Assembly: GCA_022508345.1 (NCBI GenBank) | Contig: JAFLVK010000002.1 | Coordinates: 1 to 64,000, forward strand | DNA length: 64,000 bases | Direction: 5' to 3' | From: Clostridiales bacterium | GTDB lineage: Bacteria; Bacillota; Clostridia; Christensenellales; CAG-314 | Part shown: positions 1 through 19,504 of the stretch, in pieces | Position numbering within the stretch: the stretch's first letter is position 1 | How the letters are laid out: each line of letters starts with the position of its first letter | The notes under the pieces: generated by a model | The model's input: the letters and a program-made list of their open reading frames with translations, nothing else | Told to the model about the DNA's origin: nothing | Database searches by the model: none | Position numbers and translations under genes: made by a program

Positions 1-733
1 CAATTGATTCACCTACAAAGTAGTCCTTTTTGACGTTGTCCGTATTTATCCAAATGTACATCAACTCACGAGTCTTTTCTTCTACAGGTTTCTCAATTAC
101 AATAGTTGTAGGTTCTGCGTTTTGAACAATGGGTTGAGTTGTTTCTTCTACAACAGGAGCTGGCTGCTCCACAACTTTAGCTTGGCGCTCCTCTACAGAT
201 ATTGTATATGAAGCAGACATGTTTTCGTATTTAACCGTTACAACCTTAATGCCCGCTGTGTACATGTACGGTTTTATTACGTACACAGTGCCATGTGTTT
301 TGTCCTTTTTAGCCAAGCGTGCGTAAGTGTCGTTATCTACTATTGTGTAATCTACAAGGCTTTCCGAGGTTGGTAGGACGTTGTATTCTCCGTTTACAAC
401 CAAGCCATCACAGGTAAAACCGTCACCGGCAACAAATGCACGCTGTACGACCCCAAGGTCGAGCGTGATACCCGTAAGCTCACGCTCTACTTCTGTTTTG
501 GGTTCGTTTATGTAAATTACGTCGTTTTTTTGTGTAGTTGGTTGCGCTACAGTGTATAACACATTTTGCTCGGCTTGATTTTTTATCCTGTTGCGTATAA
601 TGAGATATATTATCAGTGAAATGGCCACTACCGCAATTAACGCTTGAATAATTATTAGCCAAACAATTGTTGTGTTGGAGCTCCAGTCGAAGTTGTTACC
701 GAAGAAGCTTACTTTGTTTAATAAGTTTACCAT
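1..733 (-). CDS. Single-TM protein with Ig-like domains, family A paralog A0 (partial; continues off the left edge)
   Basis: Reverse complement from the ATG at 733 reads MVNLLNKVSFFGNNFDWSSNTTIVWLIIIQALIAVVAISLIIYLIIRNRIKNQAEQ... through ...TRELMYIWINTDNVKKDYFVGESI at base 1 with no stop. Very similar to the 10729..12354 product. RBS-like agaggt upstream. Missing from the ORF track because it has no stop in the window. Confidence 0.85.
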   Translation of the reverse strand, partial: MVNLLNKVSFFGNNFDWSSNTTIVWLIIIQALIAVVAISLIIYLIIRNRIKNQAEQNVLYTVAQPTTQKNDVIYINEPKTEVERELTGITLDLGVVQRAFVAGDGFTCDGLVVNGEYNVLPTSESLVDYTIVDNDTYARLAKKDKTHGTVYVIKPYMYTAGIKVVTVKYENMSASYTISVEERQAKVVEQPAPVVEETTQPIVQNAEPTTIVIEKPVEEKTRELMYIWINTDNVKKDYFVGESI

Positions 734-754
734 TTGATTTACCTCTTTTGCACC

Positions 755-3700
755 TTACGCTACCGTTCTACGACGAACGATAAACATTGCAGCGATAATT
801 ACGATTGCTTGAGCAACCAACGATACAACGGCAACACCGATATCCAATATATCTTCTGCTGTATTGTCAAGTTGGCTTACAATTTCGCCAATGTTGCTTA
901 CACCCTTTTCACCAGCTTGTTTAGCTTCTTCGGGAGTAACTGCTTGCTCTATCTTTTTCTTAGCGTCTTCGTATTCTTTGTCGAGTTGATCCTGCAATTC
1001 TTTCTTTTTTTCTTCACTCAGGTTGGGATTTTGCTCAATTTCTTTCTTAGCATCCTCGTATTTGTCCTCAAGGTCTTTCAATGCGCCGTCTTTAGCGTCT
1101 TTCAAGGTGCCACCTGTTGCTTGGTCAGCTTTGTCAACAACATCCACGATATCTGACATGCCTTGGTCTACTGCATCTTGAAGTTCGTCTTTGTTTGTAG
1201 CGTCATCAACGCCCTTTTTAGCGTTGTCAAGCGCATCGTCAATTTCACCCTTTGCCTGTTCCTTTTCTTCGTCTGTAAGGCCATCCATGCCGTCAATTGC
1301 GTCCTTAGCGTCCTGAGCTTTCTTGTCCAGGTCGTCCTTGGCCTTTTTCTTGGCTACATTAAGTTCTGCATCTTCAAGTGCTTTTTTGCCAGCTTGCAGT
1401 GCCTCTTCGACTTCTTCGGAAGTAACTGCGCTGTCTACTGCGTTTTGAGCCTTTTTGAGTTCCTCGTCGATTTTTTCAAGGATATCCTTTTTCTCGTCAT
1501 ATGTGAGGTCGTCACGGTTTCTAATTTCATCTTTCAAATTGTTTGCCGTGTTTTCAAGCTCTTTTTTGGCAGCTTCTTTTTCTTGTTCAAGGGTTTTGCC
1601 ACTTTCGCTACCGGGAGTTCCGTGCCCTTTGTTGCTTTCGCTCTTGTCAACACCGTTTAGAATGTCACCGATGGCCTTTTGTGCTTCGTCAGCTGCTTTC
1701 CTTGCATCTTCGGGAGTTTTTGCATTGTCAATTGCTTCCTCGGCTTTCTTAGCCGCCTCGTCAATAGCATCTTCGGCTGCCTTTCTGTCCTCGTCGCTCA
1801 GGTCGGGATAGTTATCCAGTGCGTCTTTAGCGTCTTGAGCCTTTTTCTTGACGTCATCTTGAGCCTTTTCTTTAGCGCTGTTCAGTTCAGCATCTTCGAT
1901 AGCTTTTGCACCGGCTTGTTTTGCCTGTTCTACTTCTTCGCTGTTAACTGACTTGTCAATTGCATCCTTAGCCTTTTGAAGCTCGCTTTCGATTCTGTCA
2001 ATAACCTCTTGCTTTTCTGCTTCGGTCATGTCGTTACGCTTTTTGATTTCGTTTTCAAGTTCGCGTGCCATATCTTCAAGCTCTTTCTTGGCAGCGTCCT
2101 TTTCTTCTTTCAAGCTGGGAGTACGGTTTTCGTCATCTTTGTCGCCGTGTCCGCCAAGCTTTTCGTCAACTTTGTCTATGATACCGCCGATATCCTTTTC
2201 CGCTTCATTTGCAGCGTTCTTTACATCTTCTACGGTCTCTGCCTTGTCGATATCTTTCTTAGCGTCTTCAACTCTTTGGTCTACTTCTTTCTTAGCGTCT
2301 TCAAGTTGACCGATTTCGTTTTCAAGTTCCGATTTTCTTCCCTCAAGTTCAGTTTTTTTCTGTTCGAGGTCAGATTTCTCGTTAAGAAGTCCGTCTCTCT
2401 TTTCTTCTAGCTCAGCTTTTTTGTCCTGAAGGTCCTTAAGTTGCTGCTCCAACTCTTTCTTTGTTTCTTCAAGTTCAGCACGTTTTTCTTCGGGCAAATT
2501 GTCCTGTGCAAGTTGGCTGTTTACGTTGTCCAGTGCGCCTTGAGCATCCTTTATTTTTTCTTCAAGGTCTTCAATTTCGCGCCCCAGGTCGCCAAGTTCG
2601 CTTTCTATTTCGCCCAATCTGTCTTCTATTTCGCCCAGACGGTCGTTTACATCATCAAGCTCTTCTTGTCTTTCGCCAATCATGCCGTCAAGCTCTTTGT
2701 TAGCGTCTTTGCCTTTCTGCTCTACGTCGCTAGTTGCCTTTTCCTTGGTGTAGTTCAGTTTTGCTTCGTCAAGCGCTTTTTCACCTGCTTTCTTTGCTGC
2801 TTCAACATCCTTGGAGTCAACTGCTTTTTCCAGCTCGTTCAAAGCCTTTTCAAGTTCAGCATCAATTCTGTCATTGATACCTTTCTTGTCTTCGTCTGTA
2901 AGGTCGCGACGGTTGTTGATTTCCTCTTTCAACTCTTTTGCTTTCTTTTCAAGAGCGTCACGTGCTTGCTGCTTTTCCTTTTCAAGGCTGGGCAACACGC
3001 TGTCAAGAATTGAACCAATGTCCTTTTCAGCCTCTGCTACTCTCCTGTTTACTTCGTCGGTAGTTGTAGCTTCGTCAATTGCATCAAGGGTATCTTCTAC
3101 TTTCTTGTCGATGTCCTTTTCTGCCTTTTTAAGGTCCTTAAGTTCTTGCTCAATTTGTTGCTTTCTTTCGGAAGATGTTGCAGAGTTATTCAGTTCTTGT
3201 TCAAGTTCTTCAATGCGCTTTTCAATTTCAGATTTAGCGTTTTCACCTTTTTGCACAACTTCTTCGCGAGCCTTTTCCTTGGTGTAGTTCAGCTCAGCTT
3301 CTTCAAGGGCCTTTTCGCCTGCTTTCTTTGCTTCGTCAACCTTGTCAATGTCTACTGCATTGTCGATTGCCTGTTCAGCCTTGGTAAGCTCGTCGTTAAT
3401 TCTGTCAGTAATGCCCTTCTTGTCTTCGTCAGAAAGTCCCTCACGACTGTTAACTTCGTCGACTAAATCTTTTGCCTTTTGTTCAAGCTCCTCCTTAGCC
3501 TCAGCCTTTTTGCTTGCCAGTTTTCCCTTGGGATCGTCGGGATCATCGGGTTCTTCAGGGTCCGTACCGGGAGTTTGATGTCCCTTTTCGTTTTCGCTGT
3601 CGTCAACGCCCTGAATAATGTCGCCGAATGCCTTATCTGCTGCGTCGCCTGCTTTCTTTACGTCGTCAACGTCTTCTGCATCATTTATGTCCTTTTCAGC

Positions 3701-6700
3701 TTTTTTGCGTGCTTCTTCAATAGCATCCTGAGCTGCTTTCCTGTCCTCTTCGCTCAGTTCGGGATACTTGTTCAGTGCATCATTAGCTTCCTGTGCCTTT
3801 TTGTTGACACCTTCCAAAGTTTTGTCTTTGAAATAGTTGAGTTCAGCGTTTTCCAAAGCTTCAAGGCCTTTTTGCTTAGCAGATTCAACACTTTCCGAGT
3901 CAGTTGCGCTGTTCAGCTCTTCCAATGCTTTTGCAAGTTCTTCTTGTATTCTGTCTATAATGCCCTTTCTGTCTTCTTCGCTAAGCCCCGGACGTCTTTT
4001 TACTTCGTATTCAAGTTCCTTTGCCTTGTCTTCCAAAGCTTTTTTTGCGGCGTCCTTTTTCAACTCATTGTCGATATCTTCGCTTTTTGTGCCTGCAATG
4101 TCGTCAAACTTGCCGCCCTCAACGACGTCCTCTAGCACATCGCCTATTTCGCCCTTGTCCTTGGCATCGTCAACCCTGTCAATGGCATCTTCTTCCGCCT
4201 GGCCGACGAGATCCTTTAAGATCTCGCCGTCCTCTGGGGAAAGATCGCCATCGGCAACGCGTTGATCAATTTCGTCTCTAGCTTCTTGCGCTGCGCGACG
4301 TATTTCGTTTTTTGCTTCCCATCTGGTTACTACCAAGTCGTAATATACACCAGCCTCTATCGCCTTAGCCAAAGCAACGTCTAATGCTGCTCCGTCACCG
4401 CTTTCAAGTGCTGCTTGGTATTCCGCATAAGCTTCCTTAAGTCTGTTACCTGCTTCGGTAACTTCCTGTTTGTATTGTGCGTTTTCTCTTTCAGTAAGAT
4501 AAGGCAGGTCTGCAATGTTGGTTTCAACTACGTTCTCGCCCTCTTCTGCAATTACTGCAACTTCGAATACTTCATCGTAGTCTCTATCCGGTTCTGCTGT
4601 TGCATTAGCGTTCTTCTTGTTTCGTGCATAAGCATTTGTCACTTTTGCACCGTCAATTTGTTGTTCGCTTGCGCTTTCCTGTCTGCCATCGAAGTCGTCA
4701 AGCAGCCCACCAAGCCAGTCTTCGAAGTCTTGTTGGTTGCCTTCCTTGAAGTAACCGCAGTTTGCGCATACTCCAAAGCCTGCATTACTAAATGCGTGCT
4801 CAAGCTTGTCAATCTTGCCTAGTCCGATAGTATCCAGCCAATCTGCAAGCGCTGCTGCATCACCAATTGGGTTGGTGCCTTGTGCATCTGCAATAAACAA
4901 CTTGCACAGCACGCATGTGTAGTAAGCTTCCTGTCCGTAGGACGTGCAGGTTGCAGGTATCTTTTCCGATACCAAACCAAGGTAATCGGTGTGCGCAAAT
5001 CTTCCTGTTTCTTCCTTGCAAACGGGGCATGCCTGATAGTGAGTACCGTCATTGCCTGCAATGTAGGGGTAAGTTTCGAAGTCGCTCCAATTGTGCACTG
5101 TCATGCCTGCGGAAATAGAACCGCAGTCGTCACAAGCGTACCAGTGTCCGGCAACGCTGTGCGTGAAGCCTTCCTCACTGTAGGTGTGGGGAGCCTTGGC
5201 ACTGAGGTTGTCACATTCCTTGCAGTAACCAATGTGATAATTGTTGTCTGTCTTGTCAATTGCCCAGTACAGTACCACGTGGGGAGACCTGTCCTTGCCT
5301 TCGTAACCGCAGTCCTGTTGACATGCGTGGAAGTGACAGCCCTCGCTTTGTGACCAATTGCTACCTTCGTCAAAGATGTGCTTGCTTACAATGTCTGATT
5401 TAGAGCAGGTGTCGCAGTATCCATGGTGATTTGTCTCATCTACAGATTTGTAGGAAACAATTACGTGCACTGCTTTTACTGTGTCGTGCGTACACACGTC
5501 GCAGTGTTGCCAGTGCTCAGTTTGGCTTGTGGTTACCCACTCCAGCTCGTGGCTGACGTGCTCTGTTTCGTATACACACTTTTGGCAATATTGCCAGTGT
5601 TTGCTTGCATCTGTAGATTTCCACAGCAAGTCTCCGTGGCTTACAGTTGCGTTTTCGTATTTACAATTTACATTTTGGCACATCTGATGGTGACCTTGTT
5701 CACCGTCATTTATATATGTATTGCCGTAGTCATGTGCTGCATCGTTACGCGTGTAGTTGCACTCTTTGCAGTACTCCCAGTGTTTGAGGCTGGTGTTCGT
5801 CCACGTCATGTCGTGGTTTTTGCCAACTGTTACGTAACAACCGTTGTACAGGCACTCTGTTGTGTGCTGTGTATCTGTGCTCACAATTCCACTACCCTTC
5901 CAGCTGTCGGGGTATTGCGGATCGTGCGTGTCACTCTTGCCACAACCATTAGCTGTACATGTACGCTTGTGCTGTGTTCCGTTCAGTACATAACCTGCAC
6001 CATAGCCGTGATCCTTGTAGATGTTTACCGCACACTCACTGTACGTGCATTTTCCGTAGTGTTGAGCACTGTTTGCATTTGTCCATTTGCTGGGCAAGTT
6101 TTCCGTGTGAGATTGGTATTTGCTGCATACCGAGCATTTACGGTAGTGAGTTGTACCGCTTTCGCTGTATGCACCTGTGTGCGCGCCGTAAATTGTGATG
6201 TTACATGCGCTGTTGTTGCAAATACCATTGTGGCGACTGTCGTCACCTTGGTTCCATGTGCCTGCTGTTACCGCAGCATTGTGCGTGTCAGTTGTGCCAC
6301 AGTTATTAGCACACTTACGTGTATGCGCACTACCGATACTGTCTCCACCTGTAAAGGTGTTTGCTGTCCAACTGTGTCCAGTTGCAGAAACTGTATACGT
6401 ACGGTTTGAAGAGGTTGATACTGTCTGGCTTTGGTATGTTACAGAAGCCTTGACCACCTTGCTACCGTTTACCGTACACGTAGGTGCTGAGTAAGACACC
6501 TGCGATACAGTGGGAGTTTGATTAGTAACTGTTGTACCACAACTGTTGCTACATCTCAATGTAACCTTAACTGTAATGCTGTTTACCTGCGATACTGTTA
6601 TCGTTGTACTAGAGGGAGTCCAAGTCCAATCACTTGCGTTTGCATACCACTTGTGTCCAAGTGCAGATATTGTGTATGTCTTTGAGTTACTAAGACTTCC

Positions 6701-8620
6701 GTATGTACTAGATAGCGTTGCTGTGTATGCAGCCGATCCTGTAGCTGTACATGTGGGAGCTTTGTACGTTCCTGCTATTGCAGTTACTGTTTGTGATGTT
6801 GTAGTGCTACAATTACCACACTTCAAGCTCGCCGTTGCCGAAACACTGCTCGGTCTGCTTGACTGTGTAGTAGCGGAGGGATTCCATGTCCAACTGCTTG
6901 CAGACCAGGAGTGTCCGGTTGCCGAAATTGTGTATGTCTTGGAATTACTCAAGCTACCGTATGTAGCAGACAGGGTTGCTGTGTAAGCAGCCGATCCTGT
7001 TGCTGTACAGGTAGGTGCTTTATAAGTTCCTGCTGTTGCGGTAACAGTTGAAGATGTTGTAGTGCTACACTTACTACACTTCAAGCTTGCCGTTGCAGTT
7101 ACACTGCTTGGCTTGCTTGCCTGTGTCGCAGCTGAGGGATTCCATGTCCAGCTGCTTGCAGACCAACTGTGTCCAGTTGCTGCAATAAAATAACCGGATG
7201 AAACAGATATGCCGTATGGAGAAGGCAGTGATGCCGTATAAGCAGCAAAACCTCTATCTGTACAGGTTGGAGCGCTATAACTGTCTTCTTCTACAGTTGC
7301 AGATTGTGATGTCGTAGTACTGCATATGTTACACTTTAAACTGAATGTTGCAGTTACACTGCTTGGTTTACTTGCCAGTGTCGTATTAATTGATGGGTTC
7401 CATGTAACGTCTCCAGACCAATTGTGAGGACCAATTGTCAATTCTTTACCACTGACACCTATACAATAATCCGGATCATCACAAGTGAAATATGACTTGT
7501 ATGATGATGCCACTCCTCCTGAAGTAAATACTCTTCTGGAAGATATTCCTTTGTAGATACCAATTCTAGCTGACGATGAAAGTGATGTTATGTTAATTGT
7601 ACCAAATCCATACAGATTTCGTGTTCGTACATCACTCGTATTACCTGTGATTTTTGGAGCACCAGATAAATTGAAAGTCGCACTGTCTGACACGTACATG
7701 CCACAATTTTGATTGCCTGTAATTGTTCCGCCACTCAAATTACAAGTACCACCGAACACTTTCACACCTTCGCCAATGCATCCATTTATTGTTCCGCCAG
7801 ACATATTGAATACATTAGATGTACCCTCCCCCCAAAAAACTACGCCAGTGGCATTATAGCTTGTGGTGGTCGAAATAGTTCCACCTGTCATTGTAAATGA
7901 ACCGTCATTACATGTTACACCGCCGTGAAATAATCCACCATTAAGTGTAACTTGTCCACCCTCATCAACAAATATACGGGATGTAATTGCACCTGTATCA
8001 CCGTTAATTGTTAAACTTCCATTCGCATAGACATATAAACGGTCCTTGCCGCTTAAAGTATAATTACCTAAATTTAGGGTTAGCGATCTGTTCAGATTAT
8101 TCAAGGATTGAGAAGCAGTAAGTTGAATATTTGCACCAAGCGTAATTGTGCCATATGACGAACTGTTCCAGTAAGTTTTAAATTGATCAGCTGTAGTTGG
8201 CGTACCTGTACTTGCTATCGGCATAACATCGTTCTCACCCGAATGATCTTCTTCAGGAAGCTCGTCTACCGAGATTACAGGTTCGCTTGCTACTGCAGAC
8301 TCCTCAACGGGTTCTTCTGCCACCAGTTCCTCAACAGGAGCTTCAGCAAGTTCCTCTTCAGCCAGGTCGTCACCATCGTCGTAAACGATATCACCGTCAC
8401 CGCTGATTGCGCCAGACTGCTCCAGCTTGAATTTCTTCTCCGCATTGGCAATCTGCTTTTCGCGTGCCTGTTGCAGTTCCGTTGCCTGTTGCGTAGCCTC
8501 AGCTGCTGTTGCCACTTGAAGTGAACTAGCAAGAGCTACAGAGACAATCATGCACAGCACAAGCGCTATCAACACGATTGCTGTTGCTATTGTCTTTTTT
8601 GTTATAAGGTTGGATTTCAT
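755..8620 (-). CDS. Giant modular surface protein B1 (2621 aa): signal peptide, beta-helix-like repeats, Cys/His-rich repeats, DUF1542-like helical repeats, C-terminal TM anchor
   Basis: Signal peptide MKSNLITKKTIATAIVLIALVLCMIVSVALASS; GGTI.G/SGGTITGN repeats typical of right-handed beta-helices; many CxxC/H motifs; repeated AKKELE..LTDEEK..I..I..A..AI..A..SEEVE.A...G..A..DAELN modules; C-terminus GVAVVSLVAQAIVIIAAMFIVRRRTVA; RBS aaaggagg. Confidence 0.93.
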   Translation of the reverse strand: MKSNLITKKTIATAIVLIALVLCMIVSVALASSLQVATAAEATQQATELQQAREKQIANAEKKFKLEQSGAISGDGDIVYDDGDDLAEEELAEAPVEELVAEEPVEESAVASEPVISVDELPEEDHSGENDVMPIASTGTPTTADQFKTYWNSSSYGTITLGANIQLTASQSLNNLNRSLTLNLGNYTLSGKDRLYVYANGSLTINGDTGAITSRIFVDEGGQVTLNGGLFHGGVTCNDGSFTMTGGTISTTTSYNATGVVFWGEGTSNVFNMSGGTINGCIGEGVKVFGGTCNLSGGTITGNQNCGMYVSDSATFNLSGAPKITGNTSDVRTRNLYGFGTINITSLSSSARIGIYKGISSRRVFTSGGVASSYKSYFTCDDPDYCIGVSGKELTIGPHNWSGDVTWNPSINTTLASKPSSVTATFSLKCNICSTTTSQSATVEEDSYSAPTCTDRGFAAYTASLPSPYGISVSSGYFIAATGHSWSASSWTWNPSAATQASKPSSVTATASLKCSKCSTTTSSTVTATAGTYKAPTCTATGSAAYTATLSATYGSLSNSKTYTISATGHSWSASSWTWNPSATTQSSRPSSVSATASLKCGNCSTTTSQTVTAIAGTYKAPTCTATGSAAYTATLSSTYGSLSNSKTYTISALGHKWYANASDWTWTPSSTTITVSQVNSITVKVTLRCSNSCGTTVTNQTPTVSQVSYSAPTCTVNGSKVVKASVTYQSQTVSTSSNRTYTVSATGHSWTANTFTGGDSIGSAHTRKCANNCGTTDTHNAAVTAGTWNQGDDSRHNGICNNSACNITIYGAHTGAYSESGTTHYRKCSVCSKYQSHTENLPSKWTNANSAQHYGKCTYSECAVNIYKDHGYGAGYVLNGTQHKRTCTANGCGKSDTHDPQYPDSWKGSGIVSTDTQHTTECLYNGCYVTVGKNHDMTWTNTSLKHWEYCKECNYTRNDAAHDYGNTYINDGEQGHHQMCQNVNCKYENATVSHGDLLWKSTDASKHWQYCQKCVYETEHVSHELEWVTTSQTEHWQHCDVCTHDTVKAVHVIVSYKSVDETNHHGYCDTCSKSDIVSKHIFDEGSNWSQSEGCHFHACQQDCGYEGKDRSPHVVLYWAIDKTDNNYHIGYCKECDNLSAKAPHTYSEEGFTHSVAGHWYACDDCGSISAGMTVHNWSDFETYPYIAGNDGTHYQACPVCKEETGRFAHTDYLGLVSEKIPATCTSYGQEAYYTCVLCKLFIADAQGTNPIGDAAALADWLDTIGLGKIDKLEHAFSNAGFGVCANCGYFKEGNQQDFEDWLGGLLDDFDGRQESASEQQIDGAKVTNAYARNKKNANATAEPDRDYDEVFEVAVIAEEGENVVETNIADLPYLTERENAQYKQEVTEAGNRLKEAYAEYQAALESGDGAALDVALAKAIEAGVYYDLVVTRWEAKNEIRRAAQEARDEIDQRVADGDLSPEDGEILKDLVGQAEEDAIDRVDDAKDKGEIGDVLEDVVEGGKFDDIAGTKSEDIDNELKKDAAKKALEDKAKELEYEVKRRPGLSEEDRKGIIDRIQEELAKALEELNSATDSESVESAKQKGLEALENAELNYFKDKTLEGVNKKAQEANDALNKYPELSEEDRKAAQDAIEEARKKAEKDINDAEDVDDVKKAGDAADKAFGDIIQGVDDSENEKGHQTPGTDPEEPDDPDDPKGKLASKKAEAKEELEQKAKDLVDEVNSREGLSDEDKKGITDRINDELTKAEQAIDNAVDIDKVDEAKKAGEKALEEAELNYTKEKAREEVVQKGENAKSEIEKRIEELEQELNNSATSSERKQQIEQELKDLKKAEKDIDKKVEDTLDAIDEATTTDEVNRRVAEAEKDIGSILDSVLPSLEKEKQQARDALEKKAKELKEEINNRRDLTDEDKKGINDRIDAELEKALNELEKAVDSKDVEAAKKAGEKALDEAKLNYTKEKATSDVEQKGKDANKELDGMIGERQEELDDVNDRLGEIEDRLGEIESELGDLGREIEDLEEKIKDAQGALDNVNSQLAQDNLPEEKRAELEETKKELEQQLKDLQDKKAELEEKRDGLLNEKSDLEQKKTELEGRKSELENEIGQLEDAKKEVDQRVEDAKKDIDKAETVEDVKNAANEAEKDIGGIIDKVDEKLGGHGDKDDENRTPSLKEEKDAAKKELEDMARELENEIKKRNDMTEAEKQEVIDRIESELQKAKDAIDKSVNSEEVEQAKQAGAKAIEDAELNSAKEKAQDDVKKKAQDAKDALDNYPDLSDEDRKAAEDAIDEAAKKAEEAIDNAKTPEDARKAADEAQKAIGDILNGVDKSESNKGHGTPGSESGKTLEQEKEAAKKELENTANNLKDEIRNRDDLTYDEKKDILEKIDEELKKAQNAVDSAVTSEEVEEALQAGKKALEDAELNVAKKKAKDDLDKKAQDAKDAIDGMDGLTDEEKEQAKGEIDDALDNAKKGVDDATNKDELQDAVDQGMSDIVDVVDKADQATGGTLKDAKDGALKDLEDKYEDAKKEIEQNPNLSEEKKKELQDQLDKEYEDAKKKIEQAVTPEEAKQAGEKGVSNIGEIVSQLDNTAEDILDIGVAVVSLVAQAIVIIAAMFIVRRRTVA
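4985..6330 (-). repeat. Protein-level tandem repeat in B1: about 15 units of H-x2-3-C-x2-4-C-...-H
   Basis: By-eye count in the translation: AHTRKCANNC, RHNGICNNSAC, THYRKCSVC, QHYGKCTYSEC, QHKRTCTANGC, QHTTECLYNGC, KHWEYCKEC, HHQMCQNVNC, KHWQYCQKC, EHWQHCDVC, NHHGYCDTC, HFHACQQDC, YHIGYCKEC, GHWYACDDC, THYQACPVC. Confidence 0.8.
6653..7426 (-). repeat. 258-bp (86-aa) direct tandem repeat, about 3 copies, within B1
   Basis: gtgtcc anchor recurs at 6653, 6911 and 7169. Translations HSWSASSWTWNPSA.TQ.S.PSSV.ATASLKC..CSTTTS..VTA.AGTYKAPTCTATGSAAYTATL...YGSLSNSKTYTIS are nearly identical in two units; the outermost is diverged. Confidence 0.8.
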
Positions 8621-8930
8621 ATTTTATCCTCCTTTTAATTTTCCTTTTTATAATGTAATATGTCCGCCTCCACCCCACTGCGCCTGTGCGCTTACGGACT
8701 AACGGGGCTGTTCTCCTGGTTGTTACTGACAGAAATTGAAAAAAATTTTGTTCACCTATTATGTTAATAGACGAACAAAAATAGCAAAATGGGGTGAAAA
8801 ATTAAAAAAAAATCGCTTTTTTTGCAAAAAAATCTTGACACATGTGCATAAAGTGTGTATAATTAGGTCGAAATTGAGAAATTTTCTCACTTTTTGTGCA
8901 TATATTAACATAATAGACGCTCATTTTACG

Positions 8931-8958
8931 AAAACTCATACGCATAAGTATGAGTTTT
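8931..8958 (+). terminator. Perfect 11-bp hairpin with T-tract (intrinsic-terminator-like) between A1 and B1
   Basis: aaaactcatac-gcataa-gtatgagtttt followed by ttt. Confidence 0.6.
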
Positions 8959-9088
8959 TTTGCATAGAAAATCGCGATATGGGGTGTAATTTTGGCTTTG
9001 GGGCTTGAAAAATGTGCATAAAATGGTATTTTTATGCACAAATGCCTTAAATAGAAAAATTTGACAAATGAACGTAAATAAAACTACA

Positions 9089-9117
9089 AAAAAAATAGAC
9101 TCCCAGCAAAGGGAGCC
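9089..9117 (-). terminator. Intrinsic terminator downstream of A1
   Basis: Minus strand GGCTCCC-tttgct-GGGAGTC-TATTTTTTTT. Confidence 0.85.
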
Positions 9118-9146
9118 TATCGGCTTTTGATTAAATCAATATTTTA

Positions 9147-10481
9147 CTATTCCTTTTTGGTTACGTAGATGCCCGGGCCGACTTTTGTCAATGTGAGCAA
9201 ATCGTCGTCGTCTTGCACGACGGAATCACGCGCAAATATTGCTTCGTCTTCCGAAGTGCGGATATTACGTTTTACAAGACCTTTGTTTATCAGGTTGAAT
9301 ATACCCTCGTAGGGCATATAGTAATCGACAGATTCGTAATGGGGAGCGGGTTTCATTGCATGTTGCTCCATTACTATCTTGATAAGCTCACGTGCAATAT
9401 CCAGGCGCTTGGCATTTTTCAGACGTAACATAAGGGGAGTATCTTCGTAACATGCGGTATCGGATGCATCTTCTACCGGATAGTCCTTTTCGAAATCGGC
9501 AAACTTCAATGGCAGGAATATACACAAAACCTTGCCGCGAAATGCCAGCTTTGCCAGCACCAGCTTGCCACCACACTTAAATGTCTCACGTTTCCAGCTT
9601 ACACGCGCTTTTGCGCCCTTGTAGGATAGAATATCGTTTTTGATATCGGTGTACCAATGCTTTAGTTCGTCTTCGGACTGAATAAGACGCGACAAAAAGC
9701 TCCTGTCATAACGCAAAATAGCCTCGAAAGCTTCTTCTTCCACTATCCGCAAATCGCGCTGAACCACGGTTGTGGAGGGTTGTGTTGGCTCTGGAACGGT
9801 AATTTCCTCTTCGATAGGTTCGTCTACAATAACATTGGTTTCAACCACGGTAGGCTCATACACGACTTCAGCTACGGGTTCAATGGGCTCCTCAACAATT
9901 TGCTCAGTCGTTTGCTTTGCCTTGTGCTTGGAAGCACGCTTTTCAACAGTGATTGCGTAATCCACGCTGTAATCTTCCAGCTTGACGGTTACAACCTTTA
10001 CACCAACCGTGTACATATACGGCTTGATTACGTACACTGCGGGTGGTACACCTCTCCTTTTTAGACGGACATATCTTTCGTCGTCAATAATATTGTAGTC
10101 AATTACTGTTTCCAAGGTTGGAGCCAAGTTATATTCGCTATTAACAACCAAACCCTTGCAGTCAAATTCGTCGCCTGCTTTAAATTCCCGCTGCACAACA
10201 GTCAAGTCAAGGGAAATACCCGTAAGAACGCGCTGCACCGTTGGTTCAGCCTCCTGCAGGACAATCAGTTCCGAATTGTCCATCTCAGGCTGCACCACAG
10301 TAGACACAACGTCGTTCGAAGCTTTCTTCTTAACCTTGCCGTGCAATACGAAATATAATATTAATGCAATGATTGCAACAACAATGAGCGACTGCAATAC
10401 AATCAGCAATGTTGCTGTCGTCTGTGAACTCCAACTAAGCGGTTTACCGAAGAAGGTCGCAGCATTTAATAGGTTTACCAT
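9147..10481 (-). CDS. Single-TM protein with one Ig-like domain and a conserved C-terminal domain, family A paralog A1
   Basis: MVNLLNAATFFGKPLSW... TM then HGKVKKK; C-terminal domain LRYDRSFLSRLIQSEDELKHWYTDIKNDILSYKGAKARVSWKRETFK...YEDTPLMLRLKNAKR... shared with the 10729..12354 product; RBS agaggt. Confidence 0.92.
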   Translation of the reverse strand: MVNLLNAATFFGKPLSWSSQTTATLLIVLQSLIVVAIIALILYFVLHGKVKKKASNDVVSTVVQPEMDNSELIVLQEAEPTVQRVLTGISLDLTVVQREFKAGDEFDCKGLVVNSEYNLAPTLETVIDYNIIDDERYVRLKRRGVPPAVYVIKPYMYTVGVKVVTVKLEDYSVDYAITVEKRASKHKAKQTTEQIVEEPIEPVAEVVYEPTVVETNVIVDEPIEEEITVPEPTQPSTTVVQRDLRIVEEEAFEAILRYDRSFLSRLIQSEDELKHWYTDIKNDILSYKGAKARVSWKRETFKCGGKLVLAKLAFRGKVLCIFLPLKFADFEKDYPVEDASDTACYEDTPLMLRLKNAKRLDIARELIKIVMEQHAMKPAPHYESVDYYMPYEGIFNLINKGLVKRNIRTSEDEAIFARDSVVQDDDDLLTLTKVGPGIYVTKKE

Positions 10482-10683
10482 TTGTGTACCTCTTTAGCAG
10501 CATCGCAAAAATGCTGGCTACCATTATAACCCGTGCGAGCGCAAATGTCAAGTCAAGAAAATAGTACTGCCCCATTTTATGTAGTGAATGTTAACCTGAG
10601 TGCAGAAAATTTGCAACCTAGGCAAAACACCAAACCTGTGTAAAAAATACGAATACACGAAAACCGTGACCTGGGGTGAGAAA

Positions 10684-10712
10684 AATGCAACCTGCGCTTA
10701 GCAGATTGCATT
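10684..10712 (-). terminator. Intrinsic terminator downstream of A2
   Basis: Minus strand AATGCAATCTGC-taagc-GCAGGTTGCATT-TTTCTC. Confidence 0.7.
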
Positions 10713-10728
10713 TCCTTGTAAGTAACAA

Positions 10729-12354
10729 TTAGTCTCTTTTTGTAACGTAGATGCCGGGAGCTACTTCTGTCAGTTGGAAGGAATCGTCTTCTTGATTTTC
10801 CTTTACCATTTTGTTTTGTTCGAAGATTGCTTCATCTTCCGGCAGCTTGATTTCGCGCTTGATAAGTCCTCTGTTGATTAGCTCCAGTATTCCCTCGTAG
10901 GGGATATAGTAATCGACTGTCTCATGCGGAATGCGTACAATGCCTTTTTGTTCCATTACGGTTGCAATCAATTGCTTAGCAAATTTTACACGTCTTCTAC
11001 TCTTCAAACGAATCATTAGCGGAGTATCTTCGTAGCAAGACATATCCGATGCATTTTCCACAGGATAGTTGCTGTCGGTGTAATCGTAGGGGTTCAGCGG
11101 CAGGAATATGCACAGCTGCTTGCCACGATACGCAAACTTTGCAACAACGTCCTTGTGACACTTGAATGTCTCACGCTTCCAACTCATACGGCCATGAACG
11201 CTCTTGAAGGAGAATAGTTCATTTTTCAGATCTGTGTACCAGTACTTAACTTCGTCGTCCGATTGAATGAGACGAGCTGTAAAGCTCTTGTCGTAACGCA
11301 ATCTCGACGAGATAGACTCCTCCTCTACTATAATAGGATCTGCGTGTTGCACTATAACTGTGGGTTGTTGTTCCACAACTACAGGTTGCTCCTCAACGGT
11401 TGCAGGTTCTTCCTCAGCAACCACTTCGGGTTCAACTACGGGCTCCTCTTCCACTACAGGTTCAGGTTCTGCTTCCACCTCAGGCGCAGGATTGATGGTT
11501 ATGCGATAACCAACAGTTTTGCCTTGGTAGGTTACTGTAACGGTGGGTTTGCCCTCCTTGCTCATATCGGGGGATAGTACCGAGTAGTCGCTAACCTCTT
11601 CTTCAAGCGGTTCCACGTTGAAGTGAGCGGTTACTACTAGACCGTCATGGTCGATAGATTCGCCCACAAAGTACTCTTTCTTGACGTCGTCGGTATTGAT
11701 CCAAATGTACATCAATTCGCGAGTTTTTTCCTCTACAGGCTTTTCTATTACAATTGTAGTAGGTTCTGCAACCTGAACGACGGGTTCGGGCTTCTCTTCC
11801 ACCACGGGAGCAGGCTCTTCCACTACCTTTGTCATGCGTTCTTCCACAGAAATTGTGTATGACGCTGTCATATTTTCGTAGTGAACGGTTACAACCTTGA
11901 TTCCAGCTGTGTACATGTAGGGTTTGATTACGTACACTGTGCCGTGATTTTTATCTCTCTTTGCCAAACGCATATAAGTGTCGTTATCGGTGAGAGAGTA
12001 CTCCAAGATACTTTCCGACGTGGGTGTCGCGTTGTATTCACCGTTCACAACCATTCCTTCGCAGGTAAAGGCATCACCAGCGGCAAATTTGCGCTGAACG
12101 ATCGCCAGGTCTAGCCAAATTCCTGTAAGCTCTCGCTTGACTTCGGTAGTTTGCGTAGTCGGTTGCGCTACAGTGTATACAACGCTTTCTGTTGCTTGAT
12201 TTCTTAACCTTCTACGCAGTATAATATAAATTATCAGTGATAAAGCCATAACAATAAGTACAACTTGGATAACAATCATCCAAACTATAGTCAATTGTTG
12301 GTTCCAATCGAGCTCATGCCCGAAAAAGTTTACTGCGTTTAATAGGTTTTTCAT
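10729..12354 (-). CDS. Single-TM protein with two Ig-like domains and a conserved C-terminal domain, family A paralog A2
   Basis: MKNLLNAVNFFGHELDW... TM then RRRLRN; two Ig-like repeats (GIWLDLAIVQRKFAAGDAF... and YIWINTDDVKKEYFVGESI...); same C-terminal domain as A1; RBS agaggt. Confidence 0.92.
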   Translation of the reverse strand: MKNLLNAVNFFGHELDWNQQLTIVWMIVIQVVLIVMALSLIIYIILRRRLRNQATESVVYTVAQPTTQTTEVKRELTGIWLDLAIVQRKFAAGDAFTCEGMVVNGEYNATPTSESILEYSLTDNDTYMRLAKRDKNHGTVYVIKPYMYTAGIKVVTVHYENMTASYTISVEERMTKVVEEPAPVVEEKPEPVVQVAEPTTIVIEKPVEEKTRELMYIWINTDDVKKEYFVGESIDHDGLVVTAHFNVEPLEEEVSDYSVLSPDMSKEGKPTVTVTYQGKTVGYRITINPAPEVEAEPEPVVEEEPVVEPEVVAEEEPATVEEQPVVVEQQPTVIVQHADPIIVEEESISSRLRYDKSFTARLIQSDDEVKYWYTDLKNELFSFKSVHGRMSWKRETFKCHKDVVAKFAYRGKQLCIFLPLNPYDYTDSNYPVENASDMSCYEDTPLMIRLKSRRRVKFAKQLIATVMEQKGIVRIPHETVDYYIPYEGILELINRGLIKREIKLPEDEAIFEQNKMVKENQEDDSFQLTEVAPGIYVTKRD

Positions 12355-12393
12355 TTTTTACCTCTTGTTACTTGTCTACCTTTGTTACCTAGA

Positions 12394-15300
12394 TTAAGCT
12401 AATCTTGTCTTGCGACGAATAATTAAGAATGCTACGAGTACCAACAATGCCTGAGCACTAAGTGATACAGCTGCAACACCGAAATCGATTGGGAAATCGT
12501 TCGTGCCGTCGCTAAGGTCGCTAACAACGCTACCCATGTTGTTTACACCGTTTTCAGCGGCTTGTTTAGCCTCTTCGGGGGTAACAGCTTGCTCTACCTT
12601 TTTCTTAGCGTCTTCGTATTCTCTTTCAAGTTCGCCTAGTCTCTTTTCCTTTTCCTCATCGCTGAGTTTGGGGTCTTTCTTTATTTTGTCTTCCGCTTCT
12701 TTCTTTGAGTTTTCAAGGTCTTCAAGAGCCTTGTCCTTTGCGTCTTTCAAGGTGCCGCCTGTTGCTTCGTCAGCTTTGTCAACTACGTCTACAATGCTAC
12801 CCATGCCTTCGTCTTCTGCCTTTTTAACGTCTTCAAGCGTTTCTGCGTCGTCAACTGCTTTCTTAGCATTTTTCAATGCTTCGTCAATTGCATCCTTAGC
12901 TGCTTGCTTTTCTTCGTCAGTCAGTCCGGGCATGCTGTCAATTGCATCCTTAGCGTCCTGAGCTTTCTTCTCCAGCTCTTCTTTTGCCTTGTCCTTTGCA
13001 ACGTTAAGCTCGGCATCTTCAATGTTCTTCAAACCGTCCTGAACAGCCTTTGCAACCTGTTCGGAATTGAGAGCCTTGTCTACTTCACCCTTAGCTTTGT
13101 CAAGTTCTTGGTCGATTCGGTCGGTAATATCCTTCTTCTCTTCGTCAGTCAGGTCATTACGTTGGTTAATTTCGTCCTTTTTAGCATTTGCTGCGTCGTC
13201 AAGAGCGTCTTTAGCTGCGGACTTTTCCTCTTTCAAAGTAGGAGTTTTGTCGCCGTCTTCACTGTTTTCGTGAGATTTTTCGTCAGCATCGTCAACAATG
13301 CCACCAATGTCTTTTTCGGTTTGGTCAACTACGTCTTTTACGTCGTCAACGGTTCTAGCGTCGTCAATTGTTTTGTTGGCCTCTTCAAGCTTTTGGTCAA
13401 TTTCGTCCTGAGCCGCTTTCTTTTCTTCGTCAGTCAAACCGGGCATTCTGTCGATTTCGCCCTTAGCTTCTTCGCCTCTTTGCTCCAAGTCTTTCTTAGC
13501 TTGGTCCTTAGTGTAGTTCAGTTCAGCATCGTCAATTGCCTTTTCACCGGCTTTCTTTGCTTGCTCAACTTCCTCGGGCGTTGTAGCCTTGTCAATTGCT
13601 TCTTCAGCTTTGGCAAGATCCTGTTCAATTCTGTCAACGATGCCCGGATTGTCTTGTCCTTTCTTTGCTTCGTCGGCTTTCTTTTGCAGTTCGTCCTTTG
13701 CCTGTTGCTTAGCATCGTCCAGATACTTTTGGTCAACGTATCCGCATGCTGAACATACGCCGTTTACAAAGCTGTGTTGTTCGGTTACTTGCTCTGCGCA
13801 TACATCGCATTGTCCTTTGTGTCCGTTAGCGCCGTCCTGTTCCCACTTGGTTACAGTGTGCGGTACCTTGTCAAGGTCTAGGTCGGCAAGATTTGTAACT
13901 GCTTGCGTGCCTTTTTCGTCCTTGAAGTGTTTGTCACAGTCAGGACACGTCCAGTACGCCTCACGGCCTTTTTTAGTGCAGGTGGGCGCTACCTTGTCTG
14001 TTTTTTCAAGTGTTGCATGTCCTTTTGCAGGTATTACGTACGCGTGCGCTTCTGCTTCAAAGCTTTGACTGTTATCTGCCGTTGCGCGTGCAGTAAAGGA
14101 TACTTTTCCTGTTACTTCACATTTTGGGTTTTCGCGCGAACCTACAACTTCGGTAACCTCAGCGGTTATTGTCTCTACCTTGCCACATTGAGAACATCTA
14201 ATGGTTGCTGTAACTTCAATTTCGTCAGCGTATGCTGCGGGCCAGTTCCAGCTTTGCAGTTCCCAGTTGTGTACGCCCGTTGCAGGTATCTCGTAGGTGT
14301 GTTCACTTGTAAAGGTGTTGTTACCGTACTGCACAGATGCTGTGTAGATTGCTCTACCGGTGTTGCAGCTGGGTTCAACTCTGCTTTCTGTTTGTTCTTG
14401 AATATTCAGTTTGCCATGGTTAAATACATGGTCTTTGTTACAAATGTCGCAGTGAATTGCAAGTGTGAGGTTGTCCTTATCTTCCTCTTGCTCACCCCAT
14501 GTCCACGTTTCTGTCCATTCGTGAGCAAAAGTTTCTTTTTCTTCACATTCAGCGTTTTCGCAAACGTGCCAGTGATTGTTTTCGTCAGATTGCCAATCAC
14601 TCCACTTGTGTCCTGTTGCTGTGTTAGCTTCCGTGTACACTTTACTGTTGTCGGTGTACACTTTGTCACCGTCTTCGGCAAACGTCACTGTTGCCGTAAA
14701 AGTTGCTGTGCTGTCTTTCTCGCAGGTTGCAGCAGTTTGTTGTTTACGTTCAATGCGTACTTGTTCGCCTTCGTAAACAATATCTTCTCCGCAGCCGTAC
14801 TTACATTTGAATGTTGCCGTAGCTGTAGCCGTTGTTCCGTCAAAGCTCCAACTCCACTCGGGTTCAACGCCTTCGTAGTCGTGACCGATTGCTTCAAGTA
14901 TGTAAGTGTATTCCTGTGTAAAGGTCTTGTCGCCGTACGTTACGGTTGCTGTATAGCTATGGCTACCCTCTTTGCAGGTAGGTGCTACGTACTCGCCGTC
15001 TTGTACATTGTTAAATTGTTCTTTAGTAAAGGTTACGTTTTTGTCGCACTCTTCACAGTGAATTGCAAGTGTCAAATCTTCAATTTTCTCACCCCATGTC
15101 CACTTTTCTGTCCATTCGTGAGTAAATGACTGTCTTTCTTCGCAACCGGCGTTTTCGCAAATGTGCCAGTGACTGTTTTCGTCAGTTTGCCAATCGTTCG
15201 CCCATTTGTGACCGGTTTGAGCAAGTACATATTCTTCGCTACTATCTTGGTAGCTTTGTCCGTCAAGTTCAACAGTTGCTTGGAACTTAACTTTACCGTC

Positions 15301-18300
15301 TTGTTCGCACTTTGCTGCCTCTCTGTACAGGTCGGTTATTTCACTTGCATATACAGTTTTTTCAGTTTCGCATGCGGAACATCTAAACGTAGCGTATACG
15401 TGTTGCTTGTCAACGTCGGATACGTCTTCCGCCCAGGTCCAGCCTTGAAGCTCCCAAGCATGCTTGCCTGTTGCAGCTATTGTGTATTTGTGTTCCTGAG
15501 TAAATGTTTGTCCGCCGAACTCTACTGTTGCCGTGTAGGTTACACTACCGTCTTTACAACTGGGTTCAACTCTGTCGCCCTGTTGCGGGTTCAATTCAGC
15601 GAAGTTAAATACATGGTCTTTGCCACATTCGTCACAGTGGATGGTAAGCGTCAGTCTTGTCAAATCAGCCTCATTTTCGCCCCAATTCCAAGTTTCTGTC
15701 CATTTGTGATCTACGGGGTAGGTAATACCGCAATCGTTGTCGCACACTTGCCAGTGTTGCGCGTCGTTTGAGTCCCATCTTCCCCAGCTGTGTCCTGTTG
15801 CTGTGTCAGCTTCCGTGTAAACTTCACTGTCGTTGAAGTATTGCTTGTTGCCGTCTTCAGCAAATGTTACACTTGCAACGTATTTCGCAGTGCTGTTTTC
15901 TTCGCAGCTTGCAGCACTTTGCTCTTGACGGGTAATTTGTACTTGTTCACCACTGTAAACAATTTCATGTCCACAGGTGTTGCACTTAAATGTTGCTGTT
16001 GCCTTGGCGCTATCTCTGGTTCCGTCAAACGTCCAACTCCACTCGGGTGTTACACCGTTGAAGTCATGACCTAATGCGTTGAGCGTGTAGGTATGCTCTT
16101 GCGTGTCGGAAACACCCTCGTAGTCAACCGTTACACTGTATTTGCTGTAGCCGCCGTTTACGCAATCAGCGTTTTTGCTGTCCTTCATGCTTGCGGTTAA
16201 GCCGTTGCCGTCGGTAAGCTCAATTGTTGTGTGACATTCGCTGCATTCGATTGTTACTGTAAGCTCGTCTATGCTGTCGCCCCAATGCCAACCGTCTTCT
16301 TTAATTTGCCATTTGTGTTCTGTGTGAGACGTTTTGAATCCGCATTCTTCACACGTATACATATTTTCGTCATCGAGTTCGCCAAACTTGTGCGGTTGTA
16401 ATGGACTGTGATGTTCGGGATCATTCTCGCACTCTTGATAGTGTCCGCCCATACCGTCCTCGTGCCAATCGCCTGTGTAGTTGTGACCGATAGCAGCTAC
16501 GTCATATCTATGTTGTTGTGTGTTTGTAAATTCTTCGTAGTTTATTGTTACCGTGTAGTCGTTGTAACCTGCAACGTCGCAAGTCACTTCTTGACTGTCG
16601 TCCAATTGTACAGCAAGACCGTTGTCACCGTGTTTCAAAACGATTATTTCATTACATACCGAACACTTAAGTGATACGGTCAAATCTTCAATGCTTTCAC
16701 CCCAAGTGATTGAGGTCATTGACAAAGTGTGAGGAAGCTTAGCAATTTTGCCTTCTCCTTCTGTTGTCAGCCATGATCCAAGGGAAGCTATTCTGATGTA
16801 ATTCTCGTCGAATGCGCCACCGCAAATACTACATAAGTAGTACGCCTTTATACCTGCAGATTTACATGTAGCAGGTATCTCGGGAACGTAGGTATACTCG
16901 TGTTCGCTTCCACCGCTGTGACCGGGCATTGAAGAGTTTTCACTACAATAAGTACACAGACCTGTGTTGGGGTCTAACTTGTGTGGCTGTAAAACCAAAT
17001 TTTTACCGGAAAGACTAATACACTTTTTCGACTCATCCGAATGGAAATATTTTACATATTCAGTGTCGCTTGCAGTTCCAATTGTAAACGCGTTGGAAGA
17101 GGAATAGGTAACACCAATATTTGCACCTACAGAGAATTCCCCCAATGTCATTGCACTTATTAGATAAATGTTTTCAGCTACAGAACCGTAGCCGTTACCT
17201 TTTACAACAGGCGTTCCCGAAAGGCTTATCGATCCCCGACCAGTTGCCGAGCTATAAGAGTTGCTGCTAGTAACAGATGCCTGGTACATTCCTCCGCCAT
17301 ATAGAGCAGTGTTGCCTGTAATGCTTCCACCACTCATGTCAATCGCGCTTCCTGCTCCAAAATATTGAGCGGGTTGAGAAAAGGAGTAATAATACGTATC
17401 AGTTCTACCGGTTAGATATACACCGCCACCGTACATTGCAGTGTTACCGCTAATAGTTCCGTTAGCCATATTTAACTTGGCGCCCTGCCCAGCCGCTGAA
17501 TCCAACTTCGAATTGTCATACGGCACGTTAGAATAGGTCTTAGTCATTCCTATTGCAAAAACACCGCCACCGTTTGTCGTTGCTGAGTTGCCGGAAATTG
17601 CCCCTCCGTTAAGATTTAAGATACCACCATCAAGGTAGACGCCACCACCGTTGTTGGCAGAGTTACCGCTTATTGTTCCTCCGGACATATTAAGTGAAGC
17701 AACGCCGAATGCGCAACCACCGGGAATTGTAACAGAATATGAACCATTACCATATTCAGGATCGTATTGAGCCGCTTTACTAAAAAATGTAGAAGATACA
17801 TACACGCCGCCACCGTTTACTTTTGAGCTACCGTTACCGGAAATTACTCCGCCACTCATTTCAAAGTCCACTTGACTGTTCAGCTGTACACCGCCACCGA
17901 TATTGCCGGTTATATTTCCATTGGTTAGTACACATTTAGTTGGTTCTCCTATAACTGGAGCGGTGGTCCATTTTCTATTATTAGAACCAGACATCCCATT
18001 ACTAGTAGACCTTATGGTAATGCTATTACCTGTAATAACCACACCTCTGCCACCGTTATTGGAAATGGTACCGTTGGTCATTTCAAAGGGGCCTTCTACA
18101 CTGACACCATTACCGGTGTTTTCGGTTATTGTACCGTCTGACATGTAAAATGCGCCTTTAACAGATACGCCGACACCACAACCGGATATTGTGCCACTGT
18201 ACATGTAAACTGTACCCGTTGCGTTGACACCGATCTTGGTGCAACCTGATATTGTGCTACTGTACACGGTAAATGTACCAGTTGTATTGATACCGTACTG

Positions 18301-19104
18301 GGTGCAATTTGATATTGTGCAATCATACATGTTAACTGTGCCTGCTGCATTAACACCGGTATTAGTGCAACCTGATATCGTGTTTCTCGTCAATTCCGCA
18401 GTGACATATGATGATGCCGTCTGGATGCCAGTAGCGCCACCGGATATTTGACAATCAGTCATTGTCAAAACCCTATTAATGTTTTTACTGTAGATATATA
18501 CGCCATTAGCACAAGAAATGGATGTCTTGCTAATTGTAAGATCACATGCGTAACTAGCATTTGTATATATGCCCCAAGATTTACAGGATATATCAACATT
18601 ACTTATTACGACATTAGCGTTAGCGTTTGCAATGACACCAGTTGATCCACCGGAAATTATGCCGGTACCTCTGCTACTTGTTAGCGTAAAGTTAATAGCA
18701 TCTGCGTTGGTATTGGTTACTGTAATCACATCCTTACCGGCAACCCCTGTGAGTGTGAAGCCGTTCAAGTCCAACGTGATACTCTTGTTGATTGTAACCG
18801 TTGCGGTAAGCTCGATGTCTCCTTCAATCTGAACCGTTTCGCCATCCTCAGCGTCACCTATGGCTGCATTGAGTCGTGACTCGGTGTTGATTAGCAAGGC
18901 TGCTGGCATGATGCCGTACTCGCCCGAGTTGTCTTCTGCAGGAAGTTCGTCAACAGAGACGATAGGTTCCGCGAACACTTCTTCAGCAGCTGTTGCCACT
19001 TGAAGTGAACTTGCAAGAGCTACAGATACAACCATGCACAGTGCAAGTACTGCAATCACTATTGCTGTCAATATTGATTTTTTCGTCATAAGGTTGGATT
19101 TCAT
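12394..19104 (-). CDS. Giant modular surface protein B2 (2236 aa), same architecture as B1
   Basis: Signal peptide MKSNLMTKKSILTAIVIAVLALCMVVSVALASS nearly identical to B1; long beta-helix (SGGTISGNSANNGGGVYLDGG...); CxxC/H repeats; DUF1542-like helices; C-terminus FGVAAVSLSAQALLVLVAFLIIRRKTRLA; RBS ggagagg. Confidence 0.93.
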   Translation of the reverse strand: MKSNLMTKKSILTAIVIAVLALCMVVSVALASSLQVATAAEEVFAEPIVSVDELPAEDNSGEYGIMPAALLINTESRLNAAIGDAEDGETVQIEGDIELTATVTINKSITLDLNGFTLTGVAGKDVITVTNTNADAINFTLTSSRGTGIISGGSTGVIANANANVVISNVDISCKSWGIYTNASYACDLTISKTSISCANGVYIYSKNINRVLTMTDCQISGGATGIQTASSYVTAELTRNTISGCTNTGVNAAGTVNMYDCTISNCTQYGINTTGTFTVYSSTISGCTKIGVNATGTVYMYSGTISGCGVGVSVKGAFYMSDGTITENTGNGVSVEGPFEMTNGTISNNGGRGVVITGNSITIRSTSNGMSGSNNRKWTTAPVIGEPTKCVLTNGNITGNIGGGVQLNSQVDFEMSGGVISGNGSSKVNGGGVYVSSTFFSKAAQYDPEYGNGSYSVTIPGGCAFGVASLNMSGGTISGNSANNGGGVYLDGGILNLNGGAISGNSATTNGGGVFAIGMTKTYSNVPYDNSKLDSAAGQGAKLNMANGTISGNTAMYGGGVYLTGRTDTYYYSFSQPAQYFGAGSAIDMSGGSITGNTALYGGGMYQASVTSSNSYSSATGRGSISLSGTPVVKGNGYGSVAENIYLISAMTLGEFSVGANIGVTYSSSNAFTIGTASDTEYVKYFHSDESKKCISLSGKNLVLQPHKLDPNTGLCTYCSENSSMPGHSGGSEHEYTYVPEIPATCKSAGIKAYYLCSICGGAFDENYIRIASLGSWLTTEGEGKIAKLPHTLSMTSITWGESIEDLTVSLKCSVCNEIIVLKHGDNGLAVQLDDSQEVTCDVAGYNDYTVTINYEEFTNTQQHRYDVAAIGHNYTGDWHEDGMGGHYQECENDPEHHSPLQPHKFGELDDENMYTCEECGFKTSHTEHKWQIKEDGWHWGDSIDELTVTIECSECHTTIELTDGNGLTASMKDSKNADCVNGGYSKYSVTVDYEGVSDTQEHTYTLNALGHDFNGVTPEWSWTFDGTRDSAKATATFKCNTCGHEIVYSGEQVQITRQEQSAASCEENSTAKYVASVTFAEDGNKQYFNDSEVYTEADTATGHSWGRWDSNDAQHWQVCDNDCGITYPVDHKWTETWNWGENEADLTRLTLTIHCDECGKDHVFNFAELNPQQGDRVEPSCKDGSVTYTATVEFGGQTFTQEHKYTIAATGKHAWELQGWTWAEDVSDVDKQHVYATFRCSACETEKTVYASEITDLYREAAKCEQDGKVKFQATVELDGQSYQDSSEEYVLAQTGHKWANDWQTDENSHWHICENAGCEERQSFTHEWTEKWTWGEKIEDLTLAIHCEECDKNVTFTKEQFNNVQDGEYVAPTCKEGSHSYTATVTYGDKTFTQEYTYILEAIGHDYEGVEPEWSWSFDGTTATATATFKCKYGCGEDIVYEGEQVRIERKQQTAATCEKDSTATFTATVTFAEDGDKVYTDNSKVYTEANTATGHKWSDWQSDENNHWHVCENAECEEKETFAHEWTETWTWGEQEEDKDNLTLAIHCDICNKDHVFNHGKLNIQEQTESRVEPSCNTGRAIYTASVQYGNNTFTSEHTYEIPATGVHNWELQSWNWPAAYADEIEVTATIRCSQCGKVETITAEVTEVVGSRENPKCEVTGKVSFTARATADNSQSFEAEAHAYVIPAKGHATLEKTDKVAPTCTKKGREAYWTCPDCDKHFKDEKGTQAVTNLADLDLDKVPHTVTKWEQDGANGHKGQCDVCAEQVTEQHSFVNGVCSACGYVDQKYLDDAKQQAKDELQKKADEAKKGQDNPGIVDRIEQDLAKAEEAIDKATTPEEVEQAKKAGEKAIDDAELNYTKDQAKKDLEQRGEEAKGEIDRMPGLTDEEKKAAQDEIDQKLEEANKTIDDARTVDDVKDVVDQTEKDIGGIVDDADEKSHENSEDGDKTPTLKEEKSAAKDALDDAANAKKDEINQRNDLTDEEKKDITDRIDQELDKAKGEVDKALNSEQVAKAVQDGLKNIEDAELNVAKDKAKEELEKKAQDAKDAIDSMPGLTDEEKQAAKDAIDEALKNAKKAVDDAETLEDVKKAEDEGMGSIVDVVDKADEATGGTLKDAKDKALEDLENSKKEAEDKIKKDPKLSDEEKEKRLGELEREYEDAKKKVEQAVTPEEAKQAAENGVNNMGSVVSDLSDGTNDFPIDFGVAAVSLSAQALLVLVAFLIIRRKTRLA

Positions 19105-19504
19105 TTTTTCCTCTCCAATTATTCCTTATCCTTCAATCGGGTTTTCCCCGGTAAAAGGTGTTCGCCTCCACCCTCCTGCGTCTCCTGTCCTGCCCTGCTT
19201 TTCAAGCTGTGGCTAACTTACGCAACCGAACCAAGGGTTGTTCATCAATCAATTTTGTCTTGTTGCGAGCATGCGCGATACGCTAAATTCTATGTCGCGC
19301 GCGACTCGTTTACGACCCAACTATAGCACCAAAATTAACCTGTGTCAAGTTTTTTTTGAAAATTTTTGAAATTTTTTGTAAATTTTTAAAAAAATCGCAC
19401 TCAGGTTGCAATTTTTAGGGGTCAAACCCAAAAAACTCCAGTCAGGTTACGTTTTGTCACACCACTAAGATATGCAAAAATGTCACCTGAGGTGCAAAAA
19501 TCTC

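Follow-up and report, generated by a model that had tools for sequence, protein, structure and literature searches.

Putatively invertible promoters in a tandem array of giant surface-protein operons from a Clostridia genome

The window analysed here, a stretch of 64,000 nucleotides that opens contig C12 of a Clostridiales bacterium, harbours successive minus-strand genes whose ORF coordinates confirm the order B2-A2-A1-B1-A0 given by an earlier, sequence-only reading. B2 (12394..19104, 2236 aa) and B1 (755..8620, 2621 aa) specify giant proteins of the same architecture, and each is closely followed by a member of family A: A2 (10729..12354, 541 aa) lies 39 nt behind B2, and A0 (2..733, 244 aa), which is truncated by the contig end, 21 nt behind B1, in agreement with the claimed spacings of 40 and 22 bp. 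The reported similarity between copies was also upheld, A2 being 74% identical to the A0 fragment and the final 450 aa of B1 and B2 being 53% identical. A1 (9147..10481, 444 aa, minus strand) is indeed extra and diverged; it is 53% identical to A2, falls outside any B-A pair and has its own promoter (TTGACA-17-TATAAT, 10523..10551, minus strand, 12/12 sigma-70-type) and a terminator-like hairpin behind it (9094..9121, minus strand).

As the window starts at the first base of C12, the array runs off the assembly, which comprises 1.40 Mb in 47 contigs, and a search of the same genome recovered the remainder on C43, C45, C46 and C34. The expectation of more copies past the left edge was therefore well founded, and the repetition of B and A together across the array contigs agrees with the proposal that the pair is a duplicated transcriptional unit. 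At least five B genes (at least five B-A units) and at least six A genes are present; since exact 77-mers are common to the contig ends and other array copies, the breaks are attributed to repeats and the unit count is a minimum. C34 represents the far end of the array, where a B-A pair is followed by genes for an HflX-like GTPase, an XerS-like recombinase and a methionine gamma-lyase, beyond which genes resembling MiaA, MutL and MutS were read by eye. A lexA gene (LexA; L043:3417-4109, plus strand) lies within the array on C43, and broken pieces of an A gene were observed at G000:C1:92117-92730.

Profile searches detected DUF1542 repeats in B1 (E 2.5e-90) and B2 (E 1e-51), together with a GA match in B2 (E 2.5e-10). 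Inspection by eye added, for both proteins, a signal peptide, a right-handed beta-helix-like region and C..C/H repeats, although the C..C repeats align weakly; the beta-helix-like and C..C/H parts come first, followed by DUF1542 and then by a C-terminal TM with a basic tail (RRK in B2). In other genomes A is accompanied by different giants, of up to 6669 aa, some of which carry DUF6273, MBG_2, YDG or List_Bact_rpt domains. These partner domains, DUF1542 and the repeats seen by eye support the earlier suggestion that B is a giant extracellular adhesin, which is what its sequence looks like. B has helical DUF1542 repeats, GA-like matches and giant size in common with adhesins of the Ebh/DUF1542 type, whereas it differs from them by its additional beta-helix and C..C repeats and by the absence of LPXTG from its C-termini (motif check) in a genome that has no sortase; across the family, sortase was present in 1 of 41 genomes.

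The A proteins consist of an N-terminal TM, at least one Ig-like domain, an E/P-rich linker and a conserved C-terminal domain; in A2 the second Ig-like domain matches Big_3 (E 4e-8). The C-terminal domain was left unnamed by NCBIfam and Pfam scans. It yielded a confident structure model (pLDDT 90.6) whose best Foldseek matches are YjbR/YdhG/DUF1801 proteins (most at a probability of 0.87-1.0, all with E >=0.009), suggesting that the frataxin-like fold of YjbR/YdhG (DUF1801) is common to both. The domain differs from those proteins in its identity to them of about 10%, in being tethered by a TM and in having no Pfam match, YdhG/DUF1801 not being among the Pfam matches listed for 18 A members, and a sequence search against solved structures returned a single chain (E 0.058), covering the Ig part of A. 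Within the order, 138 of 297 genomes contained this C-terminal domain, as compared to 0 of 398 genomes sampled from elsewhere in the phylum, and no account of the A family turned up in the literature searches. Paralogues of this domain with a ribosomal L15-like C-terminus occur at L050:6512-7609 (minus strand) and L109:15088-16323 (plus strand), and one of them, by content the L109 copy, matches Pfam Ribosomal_L27A (E 1.4e-9). At L144, L146, L150, L189 and L195, A-type genes lie near short surface-type proteins that by eye resemble TasA relatives.

The view of A as an outward-facing Ig-domain membrane partner was not supported. Net charge at the A TM averages -1.4 in the preceding flank and +2.4 in the following one, and on the positive-inside rule an N-out/C-in topology is favoured in 64 of 70 A relatives; this bias, coupled with the cytosolic-type fold of the C-terminal domain, indicates that the Ig and C-terminal domains are probably cytosolic. 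Big_3 Ig domains are extracellular as a rule, and their occurrence in A sits badly with a cytosolic location. A model in which A has a single TM, exposes its Ig domains to the outside and acts there together with B, under ordinary expression, would account for Big_3 and for the Foldseek matches of the Ig part, namely LigA, SbsC and other surface proteins, but appears improbable in the face of the charge bias, the similarity of the C-terminal fold to cytosolic YjbR/YdhG proteins, the existence of one paralogue of that domain without a TM, and the invertible nature of the promoters described below.

Conservation of the B-A pairing was assessed for 70 TM-bearing A relatives drawn from 78 loci by scoring upstream ORFs that end <=150 nt from A and finish in a TM with a basic tail. 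A B-like giant was located directly upstream of 35 of the 70, as compared to 8 of 553 control ORFs (1.4%). Loci L133 and L136 present a further B-like TM upstream but with a longer tail and stand outside the 35, while L143, where A also follows B, was left out of the count owing to a disturbed A reading frame; in G009 an additional A gene comes after a B-A pair (L105). On the tree, paired relatives tend to group together (13 changes versus 29.2 in shuffles). The proposed co-occurrence of A and B therefore stands as far as the pairing recurs in other species, but with an adjacent B missing from roughly every second TM-bearing A relative the pair represents a conserved rather than an obligate context. 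A homologs regularly without B, which the sequence-only reading had named as evidence against a partnership, were encountered in part, and include one clade of 15 wholly without an adjacent B.

A Gln or Glu in mid-membrane was found in both helices of 31 B-A pairs, in neither helix of 13 and in one helix of a single pair, such that 44 of 45 pairs are concordant; corrected for the tree the ratio is 7:0 (p 0.016), with the mid-membrane rule set post hoc, and an earlier, looser TM definition gave p 0.03 only. The B and A helices are neighbours in the DNA, and joint transfer as a single cassette, in place of co-evolution through contact, could account for the match. On balance we lean slightly towards a contact between A and B in the membrane. 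That A is instead tethered to the membrane on the cytosolic side, serves some other purpose and is co-transcribed with B without being its physical partner would suit the unpaired half of the relatives (many members of the clade of 15 keep the TM glutamine) and the A-like genes that adjoin other kinds of genes; we regard it as unlikely, as adjacency far exceeds the control and is retained while B domain content changes, the pair was duplicated jointly in the array, and the two partners agree in TM class.

The invertible promoters, from which most is learned about this locus, had escaped the earlier reading. Upstream of B1 lies an element (8746..8916) with arms at 8756-8781 and 8891-8916 and the core TGT/ACA, enclosing a perfect sigma-70-type promoter (TTGACA-17-TATAAT, 8835..8863, plus strand) that faces away from B1; a promoter scan of 1-19900 returned two 12/12 promoters of this type only, one being that within the B1 element. 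In this OFF orientation a terminator-like hairpin of 16 bp with a T-tract (8746..8780, minus strand, -13.0 kcal/mol) stands ahead of B1. In the approximately 165 bp upstream of B43n (C43, L043:3042-3206), TTGACA-17-TATAAT reads into B and the element is ON, while the region is inverted relative to B43n, and hence OFF, at B1, B43, B46n and one copy at the end of C45. The hairpin before B reaches 16 bp with a T-tract and -13 to -19 kcal/mol when OFF, as compared to -6.5 kcal/mol when ON. Both orientations thus occur between paralogues, any single element being seen in one orientation only. The B43n promoter, if flipped OFF, would face lexA.

Four two-armed elements and one partial element, all upstream of duplicated B genes, were established. 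They are bounded by CTATTA-NNN-TAATA inverted repeats 146-148 bp apart, and their NNN cores (TCT/AGA, TGT/ACA, CGT/ACG and TTG/CAA) are complementary within an element and different between elements; the partial element has the core TGG, with one arm visible. A site search of 41 genomes gave 12 matches in this genome, all within the array, as compared to 0 for the reversed-pattern control, and the pattern is absent from the whole G009 genome. A scan of 2.15 Mb for ATTANNNTAATA-type pairs separated by 100-200 bp led without exception to 7 elements, distributed over five genomes and all with an arm spacing of 146-148 bp and matched cores, and a fifth relative has a matched element beside a recombinase with one site base changed and a spacing of about 156 bp.

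Gene order, opposite orientations between copies, matched cores and promoters can be read off the sequence directly, and we infer from them that inversion operates at the present day; the array is likely to be a set of phase-variable surface-protein operons with invertible promoters. Contigs break at repeats within the array and the case is drawn from assembled contigs, so that the opposite orientations might be imagined to be assembly or duplication artefacts and not live switches. This is highly improbable, given that the B1 element lies well within one contig, that private matched cores and the 146-148 bp spacing recur here and in four other genomes, and that the recombinase-adjacent element of the fifth relative is matched despite its changed base and spacing. 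The B copies display patchwork identity (reaching 91% over 3 kb, with divergence in other parts), as gene conversion between them would produce, but gene conversion leaves the inverted promoters and private cores unexplained and is hardly likely to be the main source of variation in place of promoter switching; both processes can operate.

B2 has a promoter (TTGACA-17-TATAGT with TG, 19320..19348, minus strand) without flanking inverted repeats of the element type, and as this promoter is fixed B2-A2 should be always on. A conserved 5' leader of B1 (8661..8730, minus strand) contains a candidate pseudoknot, and the diverged B2 leader (19152..19242, minus strand) retains GTTCG...GGGTGGAGGCGAAC. 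The candidate pseudoknot pairs ACCCT with AGGGT and GTTCG with CGAAC in leaders from the window, L043 and L045; two pairs are changed on both sides among four paralogues, and the signal is weak in a shuffle test (59/500). An Rfam scan of 1-24000 returned a tRNA and chance microRNA/sRNA matches only, with no known leader RNA; an alternating TG/CG-rich tract at 19500-19800, upstream of B2, is the source of the chance microRNA matches.

This genome encodes two tyrosine recombinases, on C23 and C34, and zero serine recombinases. The C23 enzyme (301 aa) has no inverted-repeat element beside it here, and five relatives have recombinases that share 63-67% identity with it and immediately adjoin such elements; at L152 a recombinase (50% identical), a 139-bp inverted-repeat element and a B-A pair occur in succession. 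Sequence comparison thus makes the C23 tyrosine recombinase the most likely candidate invertase, acting in trans. The XerS-like enzyme on C34 is separated from the last A gene by about 1.3 kb and could on that ground be thought to flip the elements, but its counterpart in G009, a genome devoid of these sites, is 90% identical, it resembles the single housekeeping Xer, XerS, and it is the C23 orthologues that adjoin elements in the five relatives; a role for it as invertase is quite improbable, and it was dropped as a candidate. At L122 and L119 a recombinase lies immediately ahead of a B-A pair, and the L122 B ORF seemingly has no signal peptide, as though its head lay elsewhere.

In the model that we propose, each operon would give rise to a giant B held by its C-terminal membrane helix and then to a membrane-tethered A, the body of which is probably cytosolic. 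In four and probably five of the observed units, the start of transcription would lie inside the inverted-repeat-bounded segment, which a tyrosine recombinase, most likely the C23 protein in trans, would invert: when ON the promoter would read into B-A, and when OFF it would face away, with the terminator-like hairpin before B. Such recombination uses a pair of identical sites (PMC8371274). With a 3-nt core of its own each segment would recombine only between its own partner arms, so that units would switch independently and the repeats would not delete each other; private cores, for which no description was found in a non-exhaustive literature search, may in this way insulate the units from one another. 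B2-A2 would stay on from its fixed promoter. A would probably bind B via paired membrane helices with matching embedded Gln, and may link or sense B from inside in a lineage nearly without sortase. Flippable promoters probably let cells show different coats.

A small-genome, uncultured, gut-type lineage of Clostridia therefore has an apparent combinatorial ON/OFF set of giant adhesin operons, to which is linked an undescribed A family whose C-terminal domain is restricted to the order among the genomes sampled. Private cores suggest a simple, testable rule by which one recombinase could serve many switches while the repeat array remains unscrambled, and, if it is true that A grips B inside the membrane, A is a candidate substitute for sortase anchoring. 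The full combination, namely that A is an order-restricted inner partner which engages many unrelated giants helix-to-helix in sortase-less bacteria, as a new mode of holding or sensing them, and that one recombinase can switch the units independently of each other by virtue of their private 3-nt cores, is put forward tentatively, and we incline to doubt that all of it will hold.

The nearest known system is the promoter inversion of Mycoplasma penetrans P35. To our knowledge no A partner has been recognised in the P35 operons. Each gene of the P35 (mpl) family is reported to have an invertible promoter (PMC10502178, citing Horino 2003), and the likeness, drawn from the published description, extends to paralogous surface-gene clusters, promoter inversion per gene and ON/OFF phase variation, whereas P35 products are lipoproteins and those described here giant TM-anchored proteins. 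In Bacteroides fragilis a single tyrosine recombinase inverts two promoters of surface products, one local and one distant (PMC4747536); inversion of promoters controlling surface products by a tyrosine recombinase is similar, but the loci concerned are polysaccharide and outer-membrane loci in another phylum, with no tandem adhesin array. Invertons of gut Clostridia linked to tyrosine recombinases, as reported for inverton group 139 (PMC11892184), and the switches of C. difficile, which include a 174-bp element (PMC9286219), belong to the same bacterial class, are of similar size and have tyrosine recombinases nearby, but their targets differ. Promoter inversion of surface genes is hence known already; the present array departs from these systems in its operon of giant B and A, in the A family and in its private cores.
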